Positions 1,680 through 41,466 of a stretch of DNA of 42,326 bases are shown one piece after another. Each line of letters opens with the position of its first letter. Position 1 is the first letter of the stretch. The notes beneath the pieces were generated by a model. The model ran no database searches, was not told the origin of the DNA, and saw only the letters and a list, made by a program, of their open reading frames with translations. Origin of the DNA: a virus; IMG/VR virus record IMGVR_UViG_3300035698_005633, positions 1 to 42,326 of that record; one strand, 5' to 3'. The position numbers and the translations under genes are program-made.

Positions 1680-3524
1680 ATGAATATACCTATTTTCGGT
1701 AAAGATAACCCGTTTGCTAAATTTTTTAGATTTTCTAGATTGAATGATACTAATGTACAAGAAGAGAAGGAAAAGGCTAATAATAGTCGAGGTTATTCCC
1801 AAGAACAAATTGATTTTGGTTATGCGTCATTTATGAACTACGGTCAAAGTAATTCTGATAATTATGGTATGTCATCTATTAGTATACAGTTTGAACAATA
1901 TTTTAGATTAAAAGCTCAGAGAATTTTTAAGTATAGAGAGATGTCATATTATCCTGATATAAATGATGGATTAGATATGATATGTGATGAGGCTATGGTT
2001 GATGATAATAATGGCGAATATATGTCATTAAAGATAACAGAAGAAATCCCTGAGCATATAGAAGAAAAAATACGTGAGTATTGGGATTACCTTATTCATG
2101 AAGTTTTTGCTATAAATGAAACAGGATGGGAATTGTTTAGACGATGGTTAGTTGATTCTGAATTATATATAGAATTGGTATTGAATGATGATGGTGATAG
2201 TATAATTGATTTTAAAGTATTACCCGCCCATACTATGACACCTATTTATGATGCAACATCAGATATTTCAGGATTTGTTCAAACTCCTAGTGTTGTACCA
2301 GGTGTTGGTGATAGTGGTGTTGTTAGTTCTAATAACGATACCCAAGATCAAAATAATGGGTATAATAGTAATACTTATGGGGAAGATGAACAAGCTTCTG
2401 CCGAAGATAAAGAGATCTTATTTGATAAAGAACAGGTTCTATATGTCAATTATGGTGAGACAGGACGAAACAAGTTGGATGTTAGAGGCTTCTTAGAGTC
2501 TAATATACGCATATACAACCAATTAAAGTACCTAGAGGATGCTGTGGTTGTATATCGCATCGTTCGTGCTCCTGAGAGGCGCATATGGAACGTTGGGGTT
2601 GGTCGTATGCCTAAAGGTAAAGCAGAACAATATATCCGTGGTCTTATTCAGCGATATAGAAAAAATGTTTATTATGATCCCGCTACAGGTGCTATGGATT
2701 CATCAAAAAATTTCCAAGCAATGACCGAAGATTTTTGGTTTGCTAAAGATGAAAATGGTGAGGGTACAACAGTTGACACATTAGCTGGTGGACAAAATCT
2801 TGGTGAAATGGATGATATTTATTATTTCGAACGAAAACTTCACCAAAATATGAAAATACCTCGTAATAGATGGGGTGCTGGTAGTGGTGATGAAGTTTCT
2901 GATGTTTATTCATCAGGTAAGGGTGGAGAAATAACTCGTGAGGAAATAAAATTTTCTAGATTTGTTCATAGATTACAAAAGAGATTTAGTTCAGTATTTA
3001 TGGACGCATTTATGACACTTCTTAGACTCCAAGGTGTTGATGACAGATATGTCGATGAATCTATATTTAAAATTGATTTTACTCAATCAAATCTTTGGCA
3101 ACAATATAAAGAGCTTGAAGTTCTTGAAGCCCGTTTTGGTATTCTTGGTGCTATAGAAACATATATCTATAAACCTGAAGAAAATGAAAATGCCCCATTC
3201 TCTATGGAATTTGTTTTGAGAAATTGGTTCTTAATGAATGACGATGAATTTGATGAGAATAAAGACTATCTTGATAAAGAAAAAGAAGCCGCTCGATTAG
3301 CTAGAGAAGATGTCGGATTTGATTCTGATGGAGAAGGCGAAGAGGGTGAAGAAGAATTTGGTGGTGAAGAAGCTGGTGGTGAAGAAGGTGGATTTGGTTT
3401 CGGCGGAGAAGACGCTGGCGGTATGGATGCTGGTGATGGATTTGGTGGAGCGGAAGCTGATGCTGTTGGTGGGGAAGAGTTTGGTGCCGCCGAAGGTGAT
3501 GCGGGCGAATTTGATATGGGATAA
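1680..3524 (+). CDS. gp20: portal vertex protein (T4 gp20-like)
   Basis: 614 residues. GTG 1674 is in frame, but ATG 1680 is spaced 7 bases from GGAG and is preferred. This is the dodecameric portal at the unique head vertex that nucleates head assembly and acts as the DNA channel for terminase and neck. Family signs are the early YYPDINDGLDMICDEAMV segment and, centrally, NQLKYLEDAVVVYRIVRAPE followed by R-x-W-x-VGVGRMPKGKAEQY and a Y-x-K-x-VYYDPATG stretch, which closely follow gp20 of T4-like phages. It is longer than T4 gp20 (about 524 aa). The extra part is a tail from about residue 543 built almost wholly of Glu, Asp, Gly and Ala. It sits directly upstream of protease, scaffold and capsid genes, as expected. 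Confidence 0.95.
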   Translation: MNIPIFGKDNPFAKFFRFSRLNDTNVQEEKEKANNSRGYSQEQIDFGYASFMNYGQSNSDNYGMSSISIQFEQYFRLKAQRIFKYREMSYYPDINDGLDMICDEAMVDDNNGEYMSLKITEEIPEHIEEKIREYWDYLIHEVFAINETGWELFRRWLVDSELYIELVLNDDGDSIIDFKVLPAHTMTPIYDATSDISGFVQTPSVVPGVGDSGVVSSNNDTQDQNNGYNSNTYGEDEQASAEDKEILFDKEQVLYVNYGETGRNKLDVRGFLESNIRIYNQLKYLEDAVVVYRIVRAPERRIWNVGVGRMPKGKAEQYIRGLIQRYRKNVYYDPATGAMDSSKNFQAMTEDFWFAKDENGEGTTVDTLAGGQNLGEMDDIYYFERKLHQNMKIPRNRWGAGSGDEVSDVYSSGKGGEITREEIKFSRFVHRLQKRFSSVFMDAFMTLLRLQGVDDRYVDESIFKIDFTQSNLWQQYKELEVLEARFGILGAIETYIYKPEENENAPFSMEFVLRNWFLMNDDEFDENKDYLDKEKEAARLAREDVGFDSDGEGEEGEEEFGGEEAGGEEGGFGFGGEDAGGMDAGDGFGGAEADAVGGEEFGAAEGDAGEFDMG

Positions 3525-3544
3525 CCCATAATTTAAGTAAAAAG

Positions 3545-3552
3545 TATAAATA
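3545..3552 (+). promoter_or_regulatory. T4-type late promoter box TATAAATA
   Basis: Exact TATAAATA in the 59-base gap after the portal gene, 32 bases before the ATG of the 54-residue ORF. It would provide late transcription of that ORF and gp21. Confidence 0.7.
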
Positions 3553-3583
3553 CTATTGATTTGTAATATATAGGAGGATTAAT

Positions 3584-3748
3584 ATGGGATCAGTAATGGA
3601 AATGATTTTGGATAGTGATTGGGTTGAGTTAGGTAAATATACTGAACAGCAAGCTGCCGACAAAATTAAAGAAAAAATAGGTGCTAAAAAGTCTGAAATC
3701 GTGGCGGCTATGAATGCTGGATATGATTCAGACGATGTGACACCGTAA
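3584..3748 (+). CDS. small hypothetical protein between portal and protease (54 aa)
   Basis: A 54-residue ORF, ATG 3584 to TAA 3748, with a strong TAGGAGG site 8-9 bases upstream and its own late promoter box. The protein begins MGSVMEMILDSDWVEL and has a helical middle rich in Lys, Glu and Gln (YTEQQAADKIKEKIGAKKSE), ending in an acidic tail (YDSDDVTP). T4 has the small prohead-core genes 67 and 68 at this place between 20 and 21, so a small core protein is possible by position. I see no convincing sequence match. The strong ribosome site makes it a likely real gene. Confidence 0.7.
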   Translation: MGSVMEMILDSDWVELGKYTEQQAADKIKEKIGAKKSEIVAAMNAGYDSDDVTP

Positions 3749-3761
3749 TAAGGAGACTGTT

Positions 3762-4424
3762 ATGAAATTACTAACAGAATATGTTTCTTTTGAAGATTTG
3801 CAGGTGATTTCGGAAGCAGTTGATGGTAAAAGTAAAAGTTATATGTTGAAGGGTCCGTTTTTACAGGCAAATGTTAAAAATCGTAATGGGAGAACATATA
3901 TGCGTGAAACACTCACGCGTGAAGTTCAAGAGTTTTATGATACTAAAATTAAAACACATCGTTCTATAGGTGAATTAGATCACCCACCAGAACCTGTTAT
4001 TAATTTGGATAGAATATCACATCTTATTACTGATTTGAAAATGGAGGGTGACATTGGTTATGGTTGCGCTAAACTATTAAACACCCCTATGGGTATGATT
4101 GCTAAGGCATTGATTGATGATGGCGTGCAATTAGGAATGTCAACTCGTGGAGTTGGAACTCTTGATGGTGATAGAGTTAAGGATGATTATAAATTAATTA
4201 CAGTTGATATTGTTGCTGACCCGTCAGCTCCAACAGCTTTTGTCGAGGGTGTTCTAGAAAATAAAGAATACATTGTTGCACAGACAGGAGAGATTGTTGA
4301 GAGAGCTGTTGAACAATTAAAACGCGATATGGACGAAGCATGTTCACATAAATATAATAAAGAAGTGTTCTCAAGTGAGGTTCTTTCTTATTTAGATTGC
4401 TTTATGAACTCTATTCATGTGTAG
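3762..4424 (+). CDS. gp21: prohead core protease (T4 gp21-like)
   Basis: 220 residues, ATG 3762 behind AAGGAG. This serine protease of the herpesvirus-assemblin-like fold matures the prohead by cutting scaffold, portal-associated and capsid proteins. Visible features are an N-terminal segment ending in NRNGRTYMRE, the catalytic His in GELDHP (His74), the nucleophile Ser in LGMSTRG (Ser127) and a VDIVADPSAP segment (residues 148-157), all arranged as in gp21. Length matches T4 gp21 (about 212 aa). It lies between portal and scaffold, the conserved place. The tail after about residue 165 is helical and is probably the part removed by self-cleavage, an inference from the T4 case. Confidence 0.95.
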   Translation: MKLLTEYVSFEDLQVISEAVDGKSKSYMLKGPFLQANVKNRNGRTYMRETLTREVQEFYDTKIKTHRSIGELDHPPEPVINLDRISHLITDLKMEGDIGYGCAKLLNTPMGMIAKALIDDGVQLGMSTRGVGTLDGDRVKDDYKLITVDIVADPSAPTAFVEGVLENKEYIVAQTGEIVERAVEQLKRDMDEACSHKYNKEVFSSEVLSYLDCFMNSIHV

Positions 4425-10861: not shown

Positions 10862-10875
10862 AATTGGAGGTATAT

Positions 10876-11235
10876 ATGTATTTCGGAAAACCTAATTTAA
10901 GAGGTGAGGGTGAAACATACGAATTTACTAACGATAGATTGGAAGAATATTTTAAGTGCGCCGAGGATATTGTTTATTTTGCGGAAAAATATTATTACAT
11001 AGTAAATATCGATGAGGGTAAACATAAAATAAACTTATATGATTTTCAAAAAAAATCATTAAAAGTTTTTTGTTCGGATAGTGTTGATGGGAAGAAAAAT
11101 ACTATTATATTGATGCCGAGACAAATGGGCAAGTGTCTTTGTGGGGACACATTCATAAAAATTAAAAATCGTAAGACGGGGGAAATCAACGAGTTATCAA
11201 TATTAGAATTTTACGAGTTGTCGAAAAATGCTTAA
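10876..11235 (+). CDS. gp17: large terminase N-terminal part fused to N-intein (gp17-N::IntN)
   Basis: 119 residues, ATG 10876 (TTG 10864 is in frame but overlaps the GGAGG site, so it is rejected). Residues 1-86 are the N-extein: start of the packaging ATPase, with the adenine-binding LYDFQKKSL segment and a truncated Walker A, MPRQMGK. T4 gp17 has SRQLGKTT here. After the Walker lysine the frame enters an intein at Cys87: CLCGDTFIKI is a typical block A with nucleophile Cys. Only 33 intein residues follow before TAA. The rest of the terminase begins at 12635, in another gene. By itself this product cannot pack DNA; protein trans-splicing with the product of 12290-13906 would restore the GK-TT junction. 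Confidence 0.93.
   Translation: MYFGKPNLRGEGETYEFTNDRLEEYFKCAEDIVYFAEKYYYIVNIDEGKHKINLYDFQKKSLKVFCSDSVDGKKNTIILMPRQMGKCLCGDTFIKIKNRKTGEINELSILEFYELSKNA
11134..11232 (+). other. split intein, N-terminal half (IntN, 33 aa)
   Basis: Starts with Cys at the GK/C junction; block A motif CLCGDTFI. At 33 residues it is much shorter than the roughly 100-residue N-halves of DnaE-type split inteins and close to the atypically split terminase inteins of environmental phages (AceL-TerL type, about 25 residues as I recall). Confidence 0.9.
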
Positions 11236-11270
11236 TGGCTAATCATGTAGGCAAGTTTATTTTGAAAATA

Positions 11271-11278
11271 TATAAATA
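11271..11278 (+). promoter_or_regulatory. late promoter box TATAAATA before the homing endonuclease
   Basis: Exact TATAAATA in the 78-base gap after the N-terminal terminase gene, 43 bases before ATG 11314. It could give the endonuclease and the C-terminal terminase gene their own late transcript. Confidence 0.65.
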
Positions 11279-11313
11279 TATTTATAGTTGATATTAATAT
11301 GATTGGGGTATTT

Positions 11314-12288
11314 ATGGAATTATTTGGTTGTAATATTTGTGGAAAAGAATTTAAAAATAGTAGTACTCTTAAACATCACACACGAGAGTTGCATTCAGAA
11401 ACTCTAAAATATGTATGCGAGATTTGTGGTACTCGGTACGAAAGTATTGGTGGGTTGCAGAGACATTTGACATCAACCCACGGTTATGATGGGATATTGC
11501 GACAGAAATATTACGATAAATATATAAAATCTGCCAATGAGGGAAATTGTAAATATTGTGGTAAACGATTAAATTTGGTTAAAGGTCGATTTAGTGAAGG
11601 GTATATGAAATTTTGTCATAATACTAAATGTAATGTGTTGTGGCATAACAAGAATTCTGATAGATTGATGAAAGCGTCTATAGGAATTAAAAACTCTATA
11701 GAATCTCATCCAGAAAAATTGAATTCTAAGATAGAATATTGGTTGGCTAAGGGGTATACCCAAGATGTTGCAGAAAAAATGCTTTCAGAACGACAAACGA
11801 CATTCAGTAAAGATATATGTATTGAAAAATATGGCGAAGAAAAGGGGTTGGCTGTTTGGAAAGAACGGCAAGATAAATGGGGGTCAACTATGGACTCTAA
11901 GCCCGAAGAAGAAAAAAATAGAATAAATAGATTAAAAGCGTTTAGTAGTGGATGTATATCTGCATCAGAAAGAGAATTATGCGAAACATTGGGTATTAAC
12001 CCACAACTATGTATTTCGTCTGATATTGGATATGTTTATGATATGTATGAGGATAATAAAATAATTGAATATAATGGTGATTATTGGCATTGCAATCCTA
12101 ATAAATATAATGGTGATTTTTATAATAAAAGTATAAAAATGACGGCTAGTGATAAGTGGGAATATGATGCGTGTAAAATATCATATGCTATAGATAATGG
12201 ATACGATGTTTTGGTTATTTGGGAATTCGATTACAAAAAAGACAAAGATAAAGTTATTCAAGAATGTTTAGAATTTTTGCGGAGTTGA
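11314..12288 (+). CDS. free-standing homing endonuclease, zinc fingers plus Vsr-like nuclease
   Basis: 324 residues. ATG 11299 is in frame, but ATG 11314 follows TGGGGT at good spacing and starts directly before the first zinc finger. Two C2H2 fingers are clear: Cys6/Cys9/His22/His27 and Cys35/Cys38/His51/His56. A third Cys4-like knuckle uses Cys79/Cys82/Cys101/Cys106. The middle has an EKYGEEKGLAVWKERQDKW repeat-type segment seen in phage endonucleases. The C-terminal domain has IIEYNGDYWHCNP (Glu252, Asn254, His259) and a later VLVIWEFDY strand, the core of the Vsr/EDxHD nuclease fold. Such enzymes are known to sit between halves of split-intein genes. It probably cuts intein-free terminase alleles to spread the locus. 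The stop is 1 base before the next ATG. Confidence 0.88.
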   Translation: MELFGCNICGKEFKNSSTLKHHTRELHSETLKYVCEICGTRYESIGGLQRHLTSTHGYDGILRQKYYDKYIKSANEGNCKYCGKRLNLVKGRFSEGYMKFCHNTKCNVLWHNKNSDRLMKASIGIKNSIESHPEKLNSKIEYWLAKGYTQDVAEKMLSERQTTFSKDICIEKYGEEKGLAVWKERQDKWGSTMDSKPEEEKNRINRLKAFSSGCISASERELCETLGINPQLCISSDIGYVYDMYEDNKIIEYNGDYWHCNPNKYNGDFYNKSIKMTASDKWEYDACKISYAIDNGYDVLVIWEFDYKKDKDKVIQECLEFLRS

Positions 12289-12289
12289 T

Positions 12290-12634
12290 ATGGGGAAAAT
12301 AATTGAGTCGTATGATGTCAACGATTGGGATGTATTGAGTGATGATGGTTGGCACCCTATAACACAAGTACATAAAACTATAAAATATGATGTTTGGGAA
12401 CTATTAACAGATACCCACAAATTGATGTGTGCTGATGAGCATATATTAATAGACGATAATCATAATGAAGTGTATGCTGAGGATTTAAAAATAGGGGACA
12501 AACTTATCACTGATATTGGGGTGGAACGAGTATTGTCTATAAAAAAATTAGATATTGACCCTGAGCACATGTATGACATTTCTATTGATTCTGATGATCA
12601 CACATTATTCACGGACGGAATTTTATCTCACAAC
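12290..12634 (+). other. split intein, C-terminal half (IntC, 115 aa)
   Basis: Ends in His-Asn followed by Thr as +1 extein residue, the expected chemistry. Block B has Cys-Ala-Asp-Glu-His in place of the usual Thr-x-x-His, as also seen, from memory, in AceL-type terminase inteins. No endonuclease domain lies inside the two halves (148 residues in all). Confidence 0.9.
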
Positions 12635-13906
12635 ACAACTATGTCAGCGGTATTTTTATTACATTATATATTATTTAATAAAGATAAAGTTGTCGCAATT
12701 CTAGCTAATAAAGAAAAAGCCGCACAAGAAGTTTTGAGGCGTATTAAAGCCGCATTTGCTATGATGCCATTATGGATGCAACAAGGTATTGTTAAGTGGA
12801 ATGAGACATCGATAGAATTAGAAAATGGTGTTAGGTTGATAGCAGCAACAACATCTTCAGATTCTATTTCAGGTGAAACTGTATCATTACTATATTTGGA
12901 TGAGTTTGCTAAAGTTAAACCACACGTTGCTGACGAGTTTATTACCGCAACACTTCCTGTAGTATCATCAGGTAAAACATCTAAAGTTATAATAGTTTCA
13001 ACGCCGCTGGGAATGAACCATTTCTACCACTATTGGAAGGGCGCGACAGAGGTAGATGCCGAACTTGCTAACAACTTTTATCCTATTAAGGTTAATTGGT
13101 GGGATCACCCTGATAGAGATGAGGCATGGAAGAAAGAAGTATTAAAAACCTTTAATAATTCTAAGACTAAATTTAATCAGGAGTATGGAAACCGTTTCTT
13201 GGGTAGTTCTGACACACTCATAGATCCTGATGTATTGGAACGAATTTTAACACGTCAACCAACAGATACTAAATGGAATGGATTATTTAGCATCTACGAA
13301 GCCCCTGAAGAGGGTGTAATGTATATTATGGGTGTTGATACCGCTAAAGGTACTGGACGCGACTACAGCGTTATACAGGTGTTAAGAATAGATGGCGAAA
13401 AGAATATAAAACAAGTTGCTATATATCGAAATAATATGATATCACCTCATGACTTTTCACAAGTTTGTATTGGTGTATCAAAATATTATAATGATAGTAT
13501 GATGATGATAGAAAATAATGATATTGGTTCTTCTGTAGCCGATACTATTTGGTATGAATACGAGTATGATAATATAGTTAATATCGATCCGAAAGGATTA
13601 GGTATCAGGGCTACGAAAAAAAGCAAATTACAGGCTAACATGTTACTTAAAAGATATATTGATGATGGGTATTTGAGATTAGTTGATGAACCAACTATAA
13701 CAGAGCTTTCAAAATATATCGAAGTTAGACCTAATGTTTTTCAGGCTGAGACGCGAACATCACACGATGACTGCGTAACTTCGTTATTATGGGCGTTGTT
13801 TTTTATAAGTACAGATTTTTTTGATAATGATAATTTAGAGGTAAAAATCTTAGATGATAAGTACGATCTTACAAATAGTGGACCTATCATGTTTTTACCT
13901 GATTAA
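12290..13906 (+). CDS. gp17: C-intein fused to large terminase ATPase/nuclease (IntC::gp17-C)
   Basis: 538 residues, ATG 12290 with GGAG five bases upstream. Residues 1-115 are the C-intein, with block B-like CADEH (47-51) and a C-terminal GILSHN; splicing would join at Thr116. The remaining 423 residues are gp17: TTMSAVFLLHYILFNKDK completes Walker A, LLYLDEFA is Walker B plus catalytic Glu (Asp204, Glu205), and VIIVSTPLG is the coupling motif. The nuclease domain follows, with GVDTAKGTGRDYS (Asp350), MIENNDIG and SHDDCV (Asp493, Asp494). All key residues are present. The spliced terminase would be about 509 residues. It pumps DNA into the prohead through the portal and cuts concatemers. Confidence 0.95.
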   Translation: MGKIIESYDVNDWDVLSDDGWHPITQVHKTIKYDVWELLTDTHKLMCADEHILIDDNHNEVYAEDLKIGDKLITDIGVERVLSIKKLDIDPEHMYDISIDSDDHTLFTDGILSHNTTMSAVFLLHYILFNKDKVVAILANKEKAAQEVLRRIKAAFAMMPLWMQQGIVKWNETSIELENGVRLIAATTSSDSISGETVSLLYLDEFAKVKPHVADEFITATLPVVSSGKTSKVIIVSTPLGMNHFYHYWKGATEVDAELANNFYPIKVNWWDHPDRDEAWKKEVLKTFNNSKTKFNQEYGNRFLGSSDTLIDPDVLERILTRQPTDTKWNGLFSIYEAPEEGVMYIMGVDTAKGTGRDYSVIQVLRIDGEKNIKQVAIYRNNMISPHDFSQVCIGVSKYYNDSMMMIENNDIGSSVADTIWYEYEYDNIVNIDPKGLGIRATKKSKLQANMLLKRYIDDGYLRLVDEPTITELSKYIEVRPNVFQAETRTSHDDCVTSLLWALFFISTDFFDNDNLEVKILDDKYDLTNSGPIMFLPD

Positions 13907-36541: not shown

Positions 36542-39500
36542 ATGGCTACAGAAGCTAAAAGAAGAATATTGCATATAAGAACAAATGATATCACTAATGT
36601 TCAAGATACACAAATAGGTTTTGAAACTGCTGGTGAGTTATCATATATTCATACTACTCTACACCCAACAACATGGGGTGCTAAAAGTTCTATAATAGAG
36701 GGTGGTACATCGGTAATATCAAGATTCACAGCATTTGATAGTATCGTTCGTTTTAGTAAAATTTATTTTGCTAACACAACCCCTATAATTATTGCTAGTG
36801 AGTATGAGGGTGAATGGGCAAGTGGCGGTGATAATCGTGATGCTGACCCATCAATAGCAACAACTAGATATGCATCATCTATTAATATTGGTATATGGAG
36901 TGGTAAAGGTAATACTAATCCATCAATAAATATTGGTCAATCTGCGGGATTCGAACAAACGACTTTCGACTTTGACACTATATACGCTGCAACATTTTCG
37001 GGATTTACCCCTGATGGTTGGGCGTATACACCGTTAATAACACCAGGTGGATTTGGTGTCACGGTTCCGACTATGATAGGTTCGAATATAAATCTTGGTG
37101 TAGAGTCTGGATATCTTGGAAGTTCATATCAATCTGTAAATATAGGTATTGGTGCGGGATCATATACATCCCAAGTAAACCAATCAATTAATATTGGTAA
37201 TGCTGCGGGTGCGTATTCAGCCACAACTCGGTCTATTATGATTGGTGCAGAAGCAGGGATACAAAAATCAGCAAGGCTATTATATATAAATGCTGCTACA
37301 CCTGCTAATGGCACATATAGGCGAATAGAAGAATTCGGCGTATATATCGGTCACGGTGCGGGAAAAGTCTCATCGGAAAGTAATGATAATGTATGTATTG
37401 GACACGATGCTGGCTATGGGTCGTATAATATAACTGTTGATGGGATTTCAACACACAGTGGTGAGAATGTATTTATTGGTCATGAGACTGGATATGGTAC
37501 AGCCGGGTACAGACAAACAGCTATAGGGGCATGGGCTGGTGTTAGTTCCCAAGGGAAAGAAAATATTAGTGTCGGATATCACGCTGGGGCGGGTCACATT
37601 GGATCTACAGATATCATGATTGGGACTGGAGCAGGTGGTTCGTCAACAACAACAATATCACCAACCACCGGTTCGATTGGGTCGTATAATATAACTGTTG
37701 GTGATGGTGCTGGACATGGTAATCATTCGTATCACGGTATACATATTGGTCGTGGTGCTGGACATGACATATCTAGTGCTAGTTATGACAACATTATACT
37801 TGGGACATTCGCAGGTAATTTCACTAGCCATACAAAATTAACAAATTGTGTTTTTATAGGCGCAAATTCTGGTGAGATTAGTAGTGGGGTTATAGTTACG
37901 GCTATGGGTAGTAGTACACTTAGCAATACAGCATCAGATTTATTTCATTTACGAAATGCTACAGGGACACTTCTTAGAGGTGATTTTTATTCTCAAAGAT
38001 TAGAGATAGAAAAAATATTGCATCTTAGGGATACAACAACTGCTAGTATATCAAGTCCATTTGTGGGCGATATAATATTTGAAGCGGGGGTACCAAAATA
38101 TTATGCTGGGTCCGCGTGGAATACTTTTGGTGGTTCTGTTGCAGGTTTAGCAGGAATGGAAAATCAAATTGTTGTTAGGAATTCTGTTGGTGGTATTGAA
38201 GCTAAGACTTCGGTGATTGGTGGTAATGGTACTATAATATATCCATCAGGTGCTACCGATACGTATTTAGATACGTTATCAGTATTATCCGTTCCTACTA
38301 AAAGTTGGGTATCAACTAGGGGTGGTCAATTAGTACCAATAACAGAATCAGCTAAAACAGGGTATATGCTGTACGGTGATAATAGGGCTAACAAAGGTGA
38401 TATTGGTTCGAGTGCTATAGATTTATCAGTTAGTACATCTTCTAGTAGTACGATGGGGGCTACGGGTTCTTATGCTTTCGCTATCGGACGAAATACTACT
38501 GCTTCAGATGAATATTCACATGCCGAGGGTGATAATACCACAGCTTCGGGTAAGTATTCACATGCTGAGGGGTATAATGTTACAGCTTCGGCTGATTATT
38601 CCCATGCTGAGGGAGGTAATACTACAGCTTCAGGTGAATATTCGCACTCTGAGGGCAAATTTTCTGTTGCTAGTGGGAACCATTCTCATGCTGAGGGTAG
38701 GTATTCCGAAGCTTGGGATGATAGTTGTCATGCGGAGGGAGCATATTCTGTTGCTAGTGGGAATTTTTCTCATAGTGAGTGTGAGAGAGGTATTGCTTAT
38801 GGTGACGCGTCCCATGCGGAGGGTAGACATACATTTGCGGGTAAAGGGTATTATGGTGTCGATGGGACACACAATTTCACTATAGCTGGTGTATCGGCAG
38901 CAAGCGACTTTACAACAGGGGATTGTGATTTTATTACATCAGGTCATAGTGTTGATACACTTAATGTGATTTCAGTAGTTACTGGTACGGGTGATACAGT
39001 AATAACATATGATGGTATTCCTGACCCCTTGATAACTATAGCTATACCAAATAATGCGTCATTAAATGAAGCCCAACACGCAGAAGGTTATAGAACTATA
39101 GCCCCTAATGATTATATGCATGTGTCGGGTCAGTTCAACGATCCTCAAACTGATACTATATTTGAGGTTGGTGTTGGCGTTAGTGAAACCACTAGGGCTA
39201 ATGGTTTCGAAATAAAAACAAATGGGTTAGAAGTACGGACACCACTAATGACTACAGCGTCTATTGCTTCGGAATCAACAGGTAAAGTATTGATTACGAA
39301 AGAATATGGTGATGCTTATTACGGAAAAGTTCAATATACAGATCCTACGAGTACAGCAATAACAGTGACTTTTGATTATGATGATGGGGATTTCCAAGAA
39401 TATACTGACGGATATGCATCAACTACAGATGTAAATATTACAGATCCTACTAATATGGTTAATGGTGATGCTATGGTTGTTGTTTTCGTAAAGACCTTAA

Positions 39501-39631
39501 CCAATCACGCTGTTAATTATGATTCAATAGAATTAATCAGTGCGGCTAATACTGGATCATTTATGTTCACAATTACTTATGTTGATAGTAGATTCTTAGT
39601 AACTCAAGCGTCAGAGCTATTAGTTTCATAA
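36542..39631 (+). CDS. trimeric tail fibre with IGxxAG and YadA-head repeats
   Basis: 1029 residues, ATG 36542 with GAGGG. Residues 1-110 start MATEAKRRILHIRTNDITNV and are the likely baseplate-attachment part. About 113-445 hold some 16 degenerate repeats of the form SINIGxxAG (INIGQSAG, NIGNAAGAYS, VCIGHDAGYG, FIGHETGYG, ISVGYHAGAG, IHIGRGAGHD). Around 450-650 is a linker with a chaperone-like strand region. Residues 657-768 are eight exact-length 14-residue YadA-head (Hep_Hag) repeats with the SHAEG signature. The end (about 900-1029) is a beta-rich tip. The repeats form left-handed trimeric beta-rolls as in autotransporter adhesins and many phage fibres, so this is very probably a host-recognition fibre. 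Confidence 0.85.
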   Translation: MATEAKRRILHIRTNDITNVQDTQIGFETAGELSYIHTTLHPTTWGAKSSIIEGGTSVISRFTAFDSIVRFSKIYFANTTPIIIASEYEGEWASGGDNRDADPSIATTRYASSINIGIWSGKGNTNPSINIGQSAGFEQTTFDFDTIYAATFSGFTPDGWAYTPLITPGGFGVTVPTMIGSNINLGVESGYLGSSYQSVNIGIGAGSYTSQVNQSINIGNAAGAYSATTRSIMIGAEAGIQKSARLLYINAATPANGTYRRIEEFGVYIGHGAGKVSSESNDNVCIGHDAGYGSYNITVDGISTHSGENVFIGHETGYGTAGYRQTAIGAWAGVSSQGKENISVGYHAGAGHIGSTDIMIGTGAGGSSTTTISPTTGSIGSYNITVGDGAGHGNHSYHGIHIGRGAGHDISSASYDNIILGTFAGNFTSHTKLTNCVFIGANSGEISSGVIVTAMGSSTLSNTASDLFHLRNATGTLLRGDFYSQRLEIEKILHLRDTTTASISSPFVGDIIFEAGVPKYYAGSAWNTFGGSVAGLAGMENQIVVRNSVGGIEAKTSVIGGNGTIIYPSGATDTYLDTLSVLSVPTKSWVSTRGGQLVPITESAKTGYMLYGDNRANKGDIGSSAIDLSVSTSSSSTMGATGSYAFAIGRNTTASDEYSHAEGDNTTASGKYSHAEGYNVTASADYSHAEGGNTTASGEYSHSEGKFSVASGNHSHAEGRYSEAWDDSCHAEGAYSVASGNFSHSECERGIAYGDASHAEGRHTFAGKGYYGVDGTHNFTIAGVSAASDFTTGDCDFITSGHSVDTLNVISVVTGTGDTVITYDGIPDPLITIAIPNNASLNEAQHAEGYRTIAPNDYMHVSGQFNDPQTDTIFEVGVGVSETTRANGFEIKTNGLEVRTPLMTTASIASESTGKVLITKEYGDAYYGKVQYTDPTSTAITVTFDYDDGDFQEYTDGYASTTDVNITDPTNMVNGDAMVVVFVKTLTNHAVNYDSIELISAANTGSFMFTITYVDSRFLVTQASELLVS
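36878..37876 (+). repeat. about 16 degenerate IGxxAG beta-roll repeats
   Basis: Protein-level repeats with core pattern (N/S)-I-x-I-G-x-x-A-G and variable 10-40 residue inserts. DNA sequence has diverged so they appear only in translation. Confidence 0.8.
38510..38845 (+). repeat. eight tandem 42-base YadA-head repeats
   Basis: Eight 14-codon units of the form (E/K/D)YSHAEG-x-x-x-TASG, each 42 bases, with no length variation. The first three or four keep near-identical DNA (TATTCACATGC, GAGGG, ACAGCTTCGG). Units five to eight are more diverged. Confidence 0.92.
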
Positions 39632-39644
39632 TAAAGGAGATAAT

Positions 39645-39770
39645 ATGAATACTAGTTTATTAGCAAAATATTTAATACCTGTAAATACTCATATTGCTAT
39701 ATTAACATATAGCGATTTGAGTACTTCGTATGTGATTGATACGAATATTAATAGGGCTGTGGATGAATAA
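39645..39770 (+). CDS. N-terminal segment of the LRR adhesin in a different frame (41 aa)
   Basis: Begins at ATG 39645 behind a strong AAAGGAG site and ends at TAA 39768-39770. Encodes MNTSLLAKYLIPVNTHIAIL, then TYSDLSTSYVIDTNINRAVD and Glu. The part AILTYSDLSTSYVIDTNIN resembles AILTFSDGSTYDIIDGEN at the start of the LRR part in the 33323 gene, so it is the natural N-terminus of an LRR protein. Here, however, the LRR frame is +1 to it and overlaps only in 39736-39770. So it may be a real start joined to the LRR gene by a +1 frameshift, an out-of-frame fossil of a deletion, or a sequencing/assembly error. It has the best ribosome site in the region. Confidence 0.65.
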   Translation: MNTSLLAKYLIPVNTHIAILTYSDLSTSYVIDTNINRAVDE

Positions 39771-41466
39771 TCAGACATTGACAATTCCAAGTAGTGTTAC
39801 TAGTATAGGGCTTGATGCATTTCGTAGTTGGTCGTTAAATAATCAGATATTAACAATTCCCAATAGTGTTACTATTATTTATGCTGGAGCATTTTATTTA
39901 TGGTCTGCTAATGATAAACAATTGACACTATCAAATACATTAACAAGTATTGGTGATTACGCATTTCGTGATTGGAATGTAAACAATCAACCATTAACAA
40001 TTCCTAATAGTGTTGCAACTATTGGTAGTGAAGCGTTTCGTGATTGGAATGCAAACAATCAGGTATTAACTATATCCAATACATGCACAAGTATTGGTAG
40101 TGTAGCATTTTATGCTTGGGAATTAAACAATCAGGTATTAACGATTCCGAGTAGCGTTACTAGTATTGGGCAGCAAGCATTTCGTAATTGGTTAGCGAAT
40201 AATCAGGTGTTAACAATTTCTAGTGGTGTTACGACTATTGGGGATAAGACTTTTAGTTATTGGACAACAAATGATCGAGTATTAACAATCCCTAATAGTG
40301 TTACTAGTATGGATAGTGGGGCATTTCGTGATTGGAACTTAAACAATAAGGTATTAACAATTTCTAGCGGTATTACGTCTATCGGAGAATCAGTATTTGC
40401 TTCGTGGTTTGCAAACGATCAAGTATTAACAATCCCAAGTAGTGTTACTAGTATTGGTGATTACACATTTCGTGATTGGCACGCAAACAATAAGGCATTA
40501 ACAATTCCTAATACTGTTACTAGTATTGGTGACTACGCATTTGAGGATTGGCGACAAAACAATCAGGTATTAACAATTTCTAGTGGTGTTACTAGTATTG
40601 GGTCATATACGTTTGGGTATTGGCTCGTAAACAATCAGGTATTAACAATTCCTAATAATGTTACCACTATTGGTAGTGAAGCGTTTCGTGATTGGGAATT
40701 AAATAATCAGGTATTAACAATTTCTAATACGTGCATAAGTATAGGGGAGGGATCATTTCGTAATTGGAAAGCAAATGATCAAGTATTAACAATCCCTAAT
40801 AGTGTTACTAGTATCGGAAATAACGTGTTTACTAATTGGCAAACAAACGACCAGGTATTAACAATTTCTAGCGGTCTTACGGCTATCGGGGAGTCAGTAT
40901 TTGCTGGGTGGTTTGTGAATAATCAAGTATTAACAATCCCAAGTAGTGTTACTAGTATTGGTGATCGCACATTTGATCGGTGGGAATTAAATAACCAGGC
41001 ATTAACAATCCCTAATACTGTTACTAGTATTGGTGTTGGTGCGTTTGAAGAATGGTACGCAAACAACCAAATATTAACAATTTCGAGTGGTGTTACTAGC
41101 ATAAGTAATGACGCATTTACTGATTGGCGAACAAACAATAAGGTATTAACGATTCCGAGTAGTATTACTAGTATTGGTATTAGCGCGTTTCGTACTTGGG
41201 AGGCAAACAATCAGGTATTAATAATCCCTAGTAGTGTTGTTAGTATTGGGGAAAGGGCGTTTTCTACTTGGAGTGCAAACACACAGCAACTAGAATTTTT
41301 GGGGGTAACTCCACCAACAATAGGGTCTAATGCGTTTGCTGATTGGAATGGTTCGATTGTTGTGATAGTCCCAGGTGCGGCAAATCTTTCTACTTGGAAG
41401 ACTGCATTGACAGGTGCTGGGGTATTTGCATCAATTAATGGAACTTCGTGGGCGTTGATACCATAG
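39763..41466 (+). CDS. BspA-type leucine-rich-repeat adhesin (21 x 24-aa repeats)
   Basis: From ATG 39763 (weak AGGG site at 39753-39756) 567 residues. A TTG at 39736 is in frame, and the frame is closed by TGA at 39733-39735. It is almost wholly made of 24-residue LRR_5 repeats with consensus NNQVLTIPSSVTSIGxxAFRxW, 21 of regular length (39766-41277), then one degenerate unit and a C-terminal cap (SIVVIVPGAANLSTWKTALT, then a short GTSWALIP end). BspA-type LRR proteins are surface adhesins in bacteria, and here they may recognise host surface structures or other cells. The ATG start overlaps the stop of the N-terminal ORF by 8 bases, so translation could be coupled. Confidence 0.78.
   Translation: MNNQTLTIPSSVTSIGLDAFRSWSLNNQILTIPNSVTIIYAGAFYLWSANDKQLTLSNTLTSIGDYAFRDWNVNNQPLTIPNSVATIGSEAFRDWNANNQVLTISNTCTSIGSVAFYAWELNNQVLTIPSSVTSIGQQAFRNWLANNQVLTISSGVTTIGDKTFSYWTTNDRVLTIPNSVTSMDSGAFRDWNLNNKVLTISSGITSIGESVFASWFANDQVLTIPSSVTSIGDYTFRDWHANNKALTIPNTVTSIGDYAFEDWRQNNQVLTISSGVTSIGSYTFGYWLVNNQVLTIPNNVTTIGSEAFRDWELNNQVLTISNTCISIGEGSFRNWKANDQVLTIPNSVTSIGNNVFTNWQTNDQVLTISSGLTAIGESVFAGWFVNNQVLTIPSSVTSIGDRTFDRWELNNQALTIPNTVTSIGVGAFEEWYANNQILTISSGVTSISNDAFTDWRTNNKVLTIPSSITSIGISAFRTWEANNQVLIIPSSVVSIGERAFSTWSANTQQLEFLGVTPPTIGSNAFADWNGSIVVIVPGAANLSTWKTALTGAGVFASINGTSWALIP
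39766..41277 (+). repeat. 21 tandem 72-base LRR repeats
   Basis: Each unit is exactly 72 bases (24 codons), typified by AATCAGGTATTAACAATTCC and AGTGTTACTAGTATTGGT. Third-position differences and alternations of IPSSVTSIG, ISSGVTSIG and IPNTVTSIG are seen. Units 9-12 match units 16-19 in order, a higher-order period of seven units (504 bases). Confidence 0.95.

Follow-up and report, generated by a model that had tools for sequence, protein, structure and literature searches.

Can a phage package its DNA when the gene for its packaging motor is broken inside the ATP-binding loop? This question is raised by the IMG/VR virus record IMGVR_UViG_3300035698_005633, of which we analyzed positions 1 to 42,326 (hereafter the window); this stretch is a fragment, the remainder of the phage genome being absent. 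The window carries a T4-like structural module, and its sole large-terminase gene (terL) is interrupted directly 3' of the codon for the Walker A lysine. An earlier note, made from the letters alone, had proposed that a split intein divides a fractured terL, with the gene of a homing endonuclease standing free between the halves, and this was also our best reading, as two complementary open reading frames (ORFs) with a nuclease gene between them were found. We consider it highly probable that the large terminase (TerL) is made as two polypeptides joined by class 1 trans-splicing, and that the mobile EDxHD endonuclease gene between them entered, and broke, what had been a cis mini-intein. Fractured genes with atypically split inteins, to which the window locus belongs, are a known kind, and the novelty rests on the family around it, i.e., on overprinted nuclease genes and a series of states at one site, rather than on the window copy alone.

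The interrupted terminase gene and its intein

All parts of the locus lie on the plus strand. The TerL N-extein (10,876–11,133; 86 amino acids) ends with MPRQMGK, in which RQMGK (11,119–11,133) is the first part of Walker A; it is preceded by the ribosome-binding site GGAGG (10,866–10,870), matches the PHROG terminase large subunit (1.2e-14) and covers profile positions 1–92 of intein-free TerL. It continues into an N-terminal intein half (IntN; 11,134–11,232, stop codon 11,233–11,235) of 33 residues, CLCGDTFIKIKNRKTGEINELSILEFYELSKNA, which contains block A with Cys1 and can be aligned with the IntN of same-site relatives, both split and cis. The C-terminal half (IntC; 12,290–12,634) has 115 residues with block B (CADEH), block F, and block G (ILSHN), and its ribosome-binding site GGAG (12,281–12,284) is located within the 3' end of the nuclease gene. 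The TerL C-extein (12,635–13,906, stop codon 13,904–13,906; 423 amino acids) begins with TTMSAVF and holds the Thr-Thr that completes Walker A, the rest of the ATPase, and the RNase H-like nuclease. It matches Terminase_6N (6e-19) and Terminase_6C (4e-11) of Pfam and is 38% identical across 100% to a T4-like cyanophage TerL. The break after the lysine, the 33-residue IntN and the 115-residue IntC ending in HN before Thr-Thr were thus where the earlier note had placed them.

TerL-N-IntN (119 amino acids) and IntC-TerL-C (538 amino acids) are separate ORFs, each consisting of an extein and a complementary intein half, and a plausible ribosome-binding site stands ahead of each of them and of the nuclease ORF. 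The joined exteins have a computed length of 509 residues and a mass of 58,556 Da, close to the 59 kDa foreseen in the note. The note had also pointed to intein-free relatives at the same site, and one such relative, locus L002 (57%), reads without interruption across the same point as ARQSGKTTVSSIF.

The class 1 intein residues Cys1, His114, Asn115, and Thr+1 are all present in the window. When 28 IntC sequences were compared, His114-Asn115 was invariant, and the +1 residue was Thr or Ser in all relatives compared. The AlphaFold2 model of the window IntC had a mean confidence (pLDDT) of 92.9, and a Foldseek search with it retrieved the VidaL (PDB 6vgv), gp41-1, and Cat inteins; there were 39 PDB matches at E<=0.001, and those listed were inteins or intein-like (BIL) domains. 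VidaL, itself an atypically split intein, was the best solved match both by sequence profile (54 bits) and by fold (TM 0.81, 1.3 Å), at approximately 23% identity. The Pfam family PT-HINT matched IntC at 5.7e-5, which is under the family cut-off. The window IntC aligned along 98% of its length with same-site inteins of cultured Vibrio phages, at 46% identity. Since this match, the likeness of the IntC model to solved inteins, and the uninterrupted reading of L002 agree, the locus is not due to chance.

Based on these residues and folds, we infer the following course. Translation of the two neighboring genes from separate ribosome-binding sites would yield TerL-N-IntN and IntC-TerL-C, and the short IntN would dock onto the nearly complete IntC. 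Class 1 trans-splicing through Cys1, Thr+1, and His114-Asn115 of IntC would then join Lys86 to Thr+1, restoring the Walker A motif RQMGKTT in a single motor of 58.6 kDa, and packaging would be dependent on trans-splicing. It is also conceivable that the halves associate non-covalently into a two-chain motor and are never spliced, as phages related to T4 have enzymes encoded by genes in pieces that work in this way, among them a ribonucleotide reductase whose gene is interrupted by that of a homing endonuclease (work cited in PMC3322345). We regard this as very unlikely for terL, because the cut falls within the P-loop and separates Lys from Thr, at a place where the holding of phosphate should need a continuous backbone, and because His-Asn at the IntC terminus is invariant in the 28 relatives, with Thr or Ser always at +1. 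The interruption might instead be removed from the RNA, the nuclease gene being carried by an intron of group I or II. There are precedents: RNA splicing of terL occurs in phage ICP1 (PMC10448857), and terL of IBB_35 has been described with an intein plus an intron. Here, however, no Rfam intron match was found in the window, intein blocks are encoded on either side of the gap, and the IntC side has its own ribosome-binding site and start, so that this explanation is scarcely credible.

The nuclease between the halves and its known relatives

The gap between the halves contains a nuclease ORF (11,299–12,288) of 329 amino acids when read from the ATG at 11,299; the better start is at 11,314 (324 amino acids), which is preceded by GGGG (11,305–11,308). 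The predicted protein consists of two C2H2 zinc fingers (Pfam zf-C2H2), a conserved middle domain, and a C-terminal EDxHD/Vsr-like nuclease domain, and its homologues occupy the same gap in relatives. In Foldseek, the C-terminal domain matched I-Bth0305I (PDB 3r3p) with a probability of 1.00 and a TM of 0.65 to the target, and the catalytic E..G..WH residues (E252, G255, H259) were invariant in 21 nuclease homologues. When the PDB was searched with a profile of the nuclease alignment, only matches of the zinc-finger type were listed; the likeness to I-Bth0305I came from the fold search. Overprinted relatives (see below) match DUF559/MTES_1575, and the zinc-finger, Vsr-like nuclease described in the note was thereby recovered. 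I-Bth0305I differs in its DNA-binding part, whereas the window protein has the C2H2 zinc fingers and a middle domain with the pattern SERQ..F..C..KYGEE..W..RQ..W. Some same-site relatives retain the middle part and differ in the catalytic domain: the F379 nuclease gave a weak match to T5orf172 (GIY-YIG type), and that of L040 looked GIY-YIG-like as judged by eye.

The domain matches suggest that the protein is an EDxHD homing endonuclease, and we infer cutting and homing from this assignment. The mobile endonuclease would cut terL copies devoid of the element, and repair would copy the element in; most likely, it entered a cis mini-intein and thereby broke the intein. A hypothetical protein of Caulobacter phage Cr30 (AGS81079) is homologous to the window nuclease (36% over 96% of the length) but is free-standing, immediately upstream of an intact, intein-free terL. 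This Cr30 gene is at L008 3423–4445, and the contigs L130 and L136 have the same arrangement, with a homologue of the nuclease gene just ahead of a terL that is intact and lacks the Walker A intein.

Fractured genes with split inteins were reportedly described by Dassa et al. in 2009. The window resembles these in that a split intein interrupts an essential phage gene and a separate gene between the halves encodes a Vsr-like/EDxHD homing endonuclease; it differs in its P-loop site and Thr+1, and in having relatives where the nuclease gene is overprinted in a still-continuous intein.

The AceL-TerL, GOS-TerL, and Cat inteins share with the window the host gene and the combination of a short IntN with a long IntC. 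The AceL-TerL and GOS-TerL inteins have Cys+1 (with Cys1 or Ser1), IntN of 25 and 37 amino acids, and IntC of 104 and 115 amino acids (PMC11766414), whereas the window intein has Cys1 and Thr+1 at Walker A. CatC, the AceL/GOS consensus, scored 36 bits against the second-site IntC of the sister phage L003 and 17 bits against the window intein, and the AceL-type site corresponds to that second break of L003 (NQEYN|CKF). An assignment of the window intein as an AceL/GOS-TerL allele was rejected on the +1 residue (Thr vs Cys) and the family comparison. The term AceL-like, used in the earlier note, therefore held for the split position (33/115 amino acids) and failed for the insertion site (Thr+1 vs Cys+1) and the family, in which VidaL is closest.

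Cis inteins of Ackermannviridae and Campylobacter phages (e.g., Marshall, VAP7, CP220) have the same terL insertion site and a homologous IntC, with 41–46% identity at best and 36–39% for Campylobacter and Serratia phages. Unlike the window intein, these are continuous mini-inteins with linkers of approximately 30–65 amino acids and no nuclease gene. Matches to same-family inteins were found in 307–315 cultured-phage records, some possibly in other P-loop genes, and IntC of the family in at least 327 IMG/VR viral contigs, some of them in other P-loop genes; the record of Salmonella phage Marshall annotates the cis version as ‘intein from Cys110 to Asn268’. By sequence, the window intein is thus a member of a large P-loop intein family that includes cultured phages: it is a new member, as the note had supposed, and not an isolated one.

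One site in many states

The sample of loci was made up of 80 of the 327 IntC-encoding contigs, 63 with the nuclease, and 80 more obtained by IntC, many of these overlapping, and the loci were classed automatically from profile hits. After removal of redundancy, 63 same-family loci were split and 19 were cis. The states observed at the Walker A site of terL were: (i) an empty site (L002), (ii) a cis mini-intein (CP220, VAP7, Kuja, Marshall), (iii) a cis intein with an overprinted nuclease gene, (iv) a split intein with a nuclease gene (the window, F379, and many others), (v) a split intein whose nuclease gene is a relic or absent, and (vi) an intact terL with a nuclease gene next to it (Cr30, L130, L136). 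Since the family displays every state at one site, some of them in cultured phages, the route by which natural split inteins arise can be tested.

The link between nuclease-gene insertion and splitting is seen most directly in two Campylobacter phages, the cis CP220 and the split F379, the latter with the nuclease gene between the halves. Their flanking DNA is 97% identical: 47 nucleotides of the CP220 cis linker correspond to 1159 nucleotides with the nuclease gene in F379. In the sister phage L003/L004, both intein halves are intact and the nuclease gene has shrunk to a C-terminal relic of approximately 28 codons in a gap of approximately 100 nucleotides (alignment score 62 in L003; its 23-residue core scored 58 vs <=44 in 2000 shuffles), which suggests that the halves are kept for a function of their own. 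Campylobacter phage CJLB-12, frameshifted and devoid of a nuclease gene, was set aside, since it has no obvious IntC start and may contain a sequencing error.

The broken terL could be a dead or decaying copy, with packaging carried out by another gene. The window is only a 42-kb fragment, and truncated TerL-ATPase-like ORFs are present near the related loci L018, L107, and L122. Against this, both halves are full length and have ribosome-binding sites, the intein residues are conserved in dozens of split relatives, and the halves were retained in L003 after the loss of the nuclease gene. No intact second terL was found in F379, the complete genome of a cultured phage having only the split terL, or in the 224-kb record of L018. 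We thus consider a dead copy improbable. An uninterrupted second terminase gene, named in the note as evidence for refutation, was not found in the 42,326-base window, and as the window is a fragment, this absence is weak evidence.

Some points weigh against trans-splicing after the breaking of a cis mini-intein. An intact second terL may lie outside the fragmentary window. Block B of the window IntC (Ala48-Asp-Glu-His51) retains His51 and has Ala in place of Thr, yet this Ala is invariant in the 28 relatives, and VidaL likewise has AxxH. The trees, moreover, leave the order of events in the clade of the window unsettled.

Overprinted nuclease genes and the origin of the splits

In L044 (679–1603), L089, L053, L032, L098, L101, L114, and L117, the intein-TerL frame is unbroken through the intein, within which the +1 frame encodes the nuclease, so that the same DNA is read both as the nuclease and, in a second frame, as an intein loop that can be dispensed with. 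L086 has the same layout with an unrelated HNH/NUMOD3 nuclease, which brings the non-redundant overprinted relatives to nine; overprinting was reached independently by two nuclease families. The intein frame of these loci contained 0 stops across approximately 280–330 codons, whereas 5000 synonymous permutations of the nuclease codons in each of five loci tested gave a mean of 15–19 intein-frame stops and a minimum never below 5. The corresponding frame of split relatives whose nuclease lies in +1 has approximately 15–58 stops. Near-identical overprinted copies were recovered from several metagenomes, which argues against an assembly error, and the existence of such copies is nearly certain. 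Among close copies, 24 of 31 changes fell on third positions of the nuclease codons, indicating that the nuclease is the constrained protein. Selection on the amino acids of the overprinted linker was considered and rejected, as the intein-frame identity (84/275) was not higher than in simulated stop-free synonymous recodings (87.1); only the openness of the frame is constrained, and the sequence is otherwise not conserved. Our literature search, in which coverage of subscription papers was thin, returned no report of a nuclease gene overprinted in an intein, and the arrangement is tentatively new as far as the literature could be searched.

A GGAG-spacer-ATG sequence within the IntN codons was found in 7 of the 9 overprinted loci, 14 of the 28 split loci with a nuclease, 3 of the 13 other split loci, and none of the 6 cis mini-inteins, every time in the +1 frame. 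A single clade for the overprinted nucleases was rejected (p-AU 3e-5). The overprint geometry, i.e., nuclease in +1 and IntC in phase, was kept in 12 of the 28 split loci with a nuclease vs 1 in 9 expected (p 2e-5, uncorrected for kinship), which suggests, without proving, that the splits descend from overprinted ancestors. When the phase from IntN to IntC was taken alone in all split loci, phase 0 was not clearly in excess; the signal appeared only after the nuclease phase was added.

It is possible, although we put it at somewhat less than an even chance, that atypically split inteins, including the window lineage, descend by decay from cis inteins with a +1-overprinted homing endonuclease. 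The ribosome-binding site and start of the nuclease would at first lie inside the IntN codons, with the intein frame free of stops through the nuclease gene; the appearance of a stop and a new IntC start would then split the intein and leave the nuclease gene free-standing. The geometry of the window is different, the nuclease being in phase with IntN and IntC in +1, and the nearest cis relative in its clade is the mini-intein L038, so that direct insertion, as in the Campylobacter phages, is equally possible.

The same intein family was also found at Walker A of gp46/SbcC-like subunits (L061, L069, L076, L177, and L216, the last by sequence likeness to L177) and of DnaB-like helicases (L060, L066, L067, L082, L084), accompanied at several of these loci by the same nuclease family. 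As the intein and nuclease families thus occur in the P-loops of three different ATPases, P-loop targeting is testable.

In the sister phage L003 (4542–8039), TerL is encoded in three ORFs, with a second split intein at a QEY|C site besides that at Walker A; three-ORF TerL was also seen in L012, L021, L027, L052, and L110. Such genes apparently contain two split inteins, and trans-splicing would have to take place twice. For protein engineering, phages in which one protein holds two split inteins offer a natural supply of split inteins that are compatible with each other. In two Vibrio phages, the nuclease at the QEY|C site is fused in frame, to IntC in Va1 (L156 2104–5563) and to IntN in VP-1 (L006 2476–5818). 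The terL genes of L014 (367–4714) and L011 (2464–6333) are interrupted at three different motifs by inteins or insertions resembling inteins, and some of these are split. The intein gap of L018 contains a short ORF (3299–3991) that stands alone, resembles the TerL ATPase, and has an intact Walker A (PRQMGKT), and similar partial ORFs are present in L107 (1765–2418) and L122 (2335–2976).

Elsewhere in the window, 36,542–39,631 and 39,736–41,466 encode repeat-rich proteins with SHAEG-type (YadA-like) and leucine-rich-repeat-like (LTIPNSVTSIG) repeats, which are probably parts of tail fibres or adhesins.
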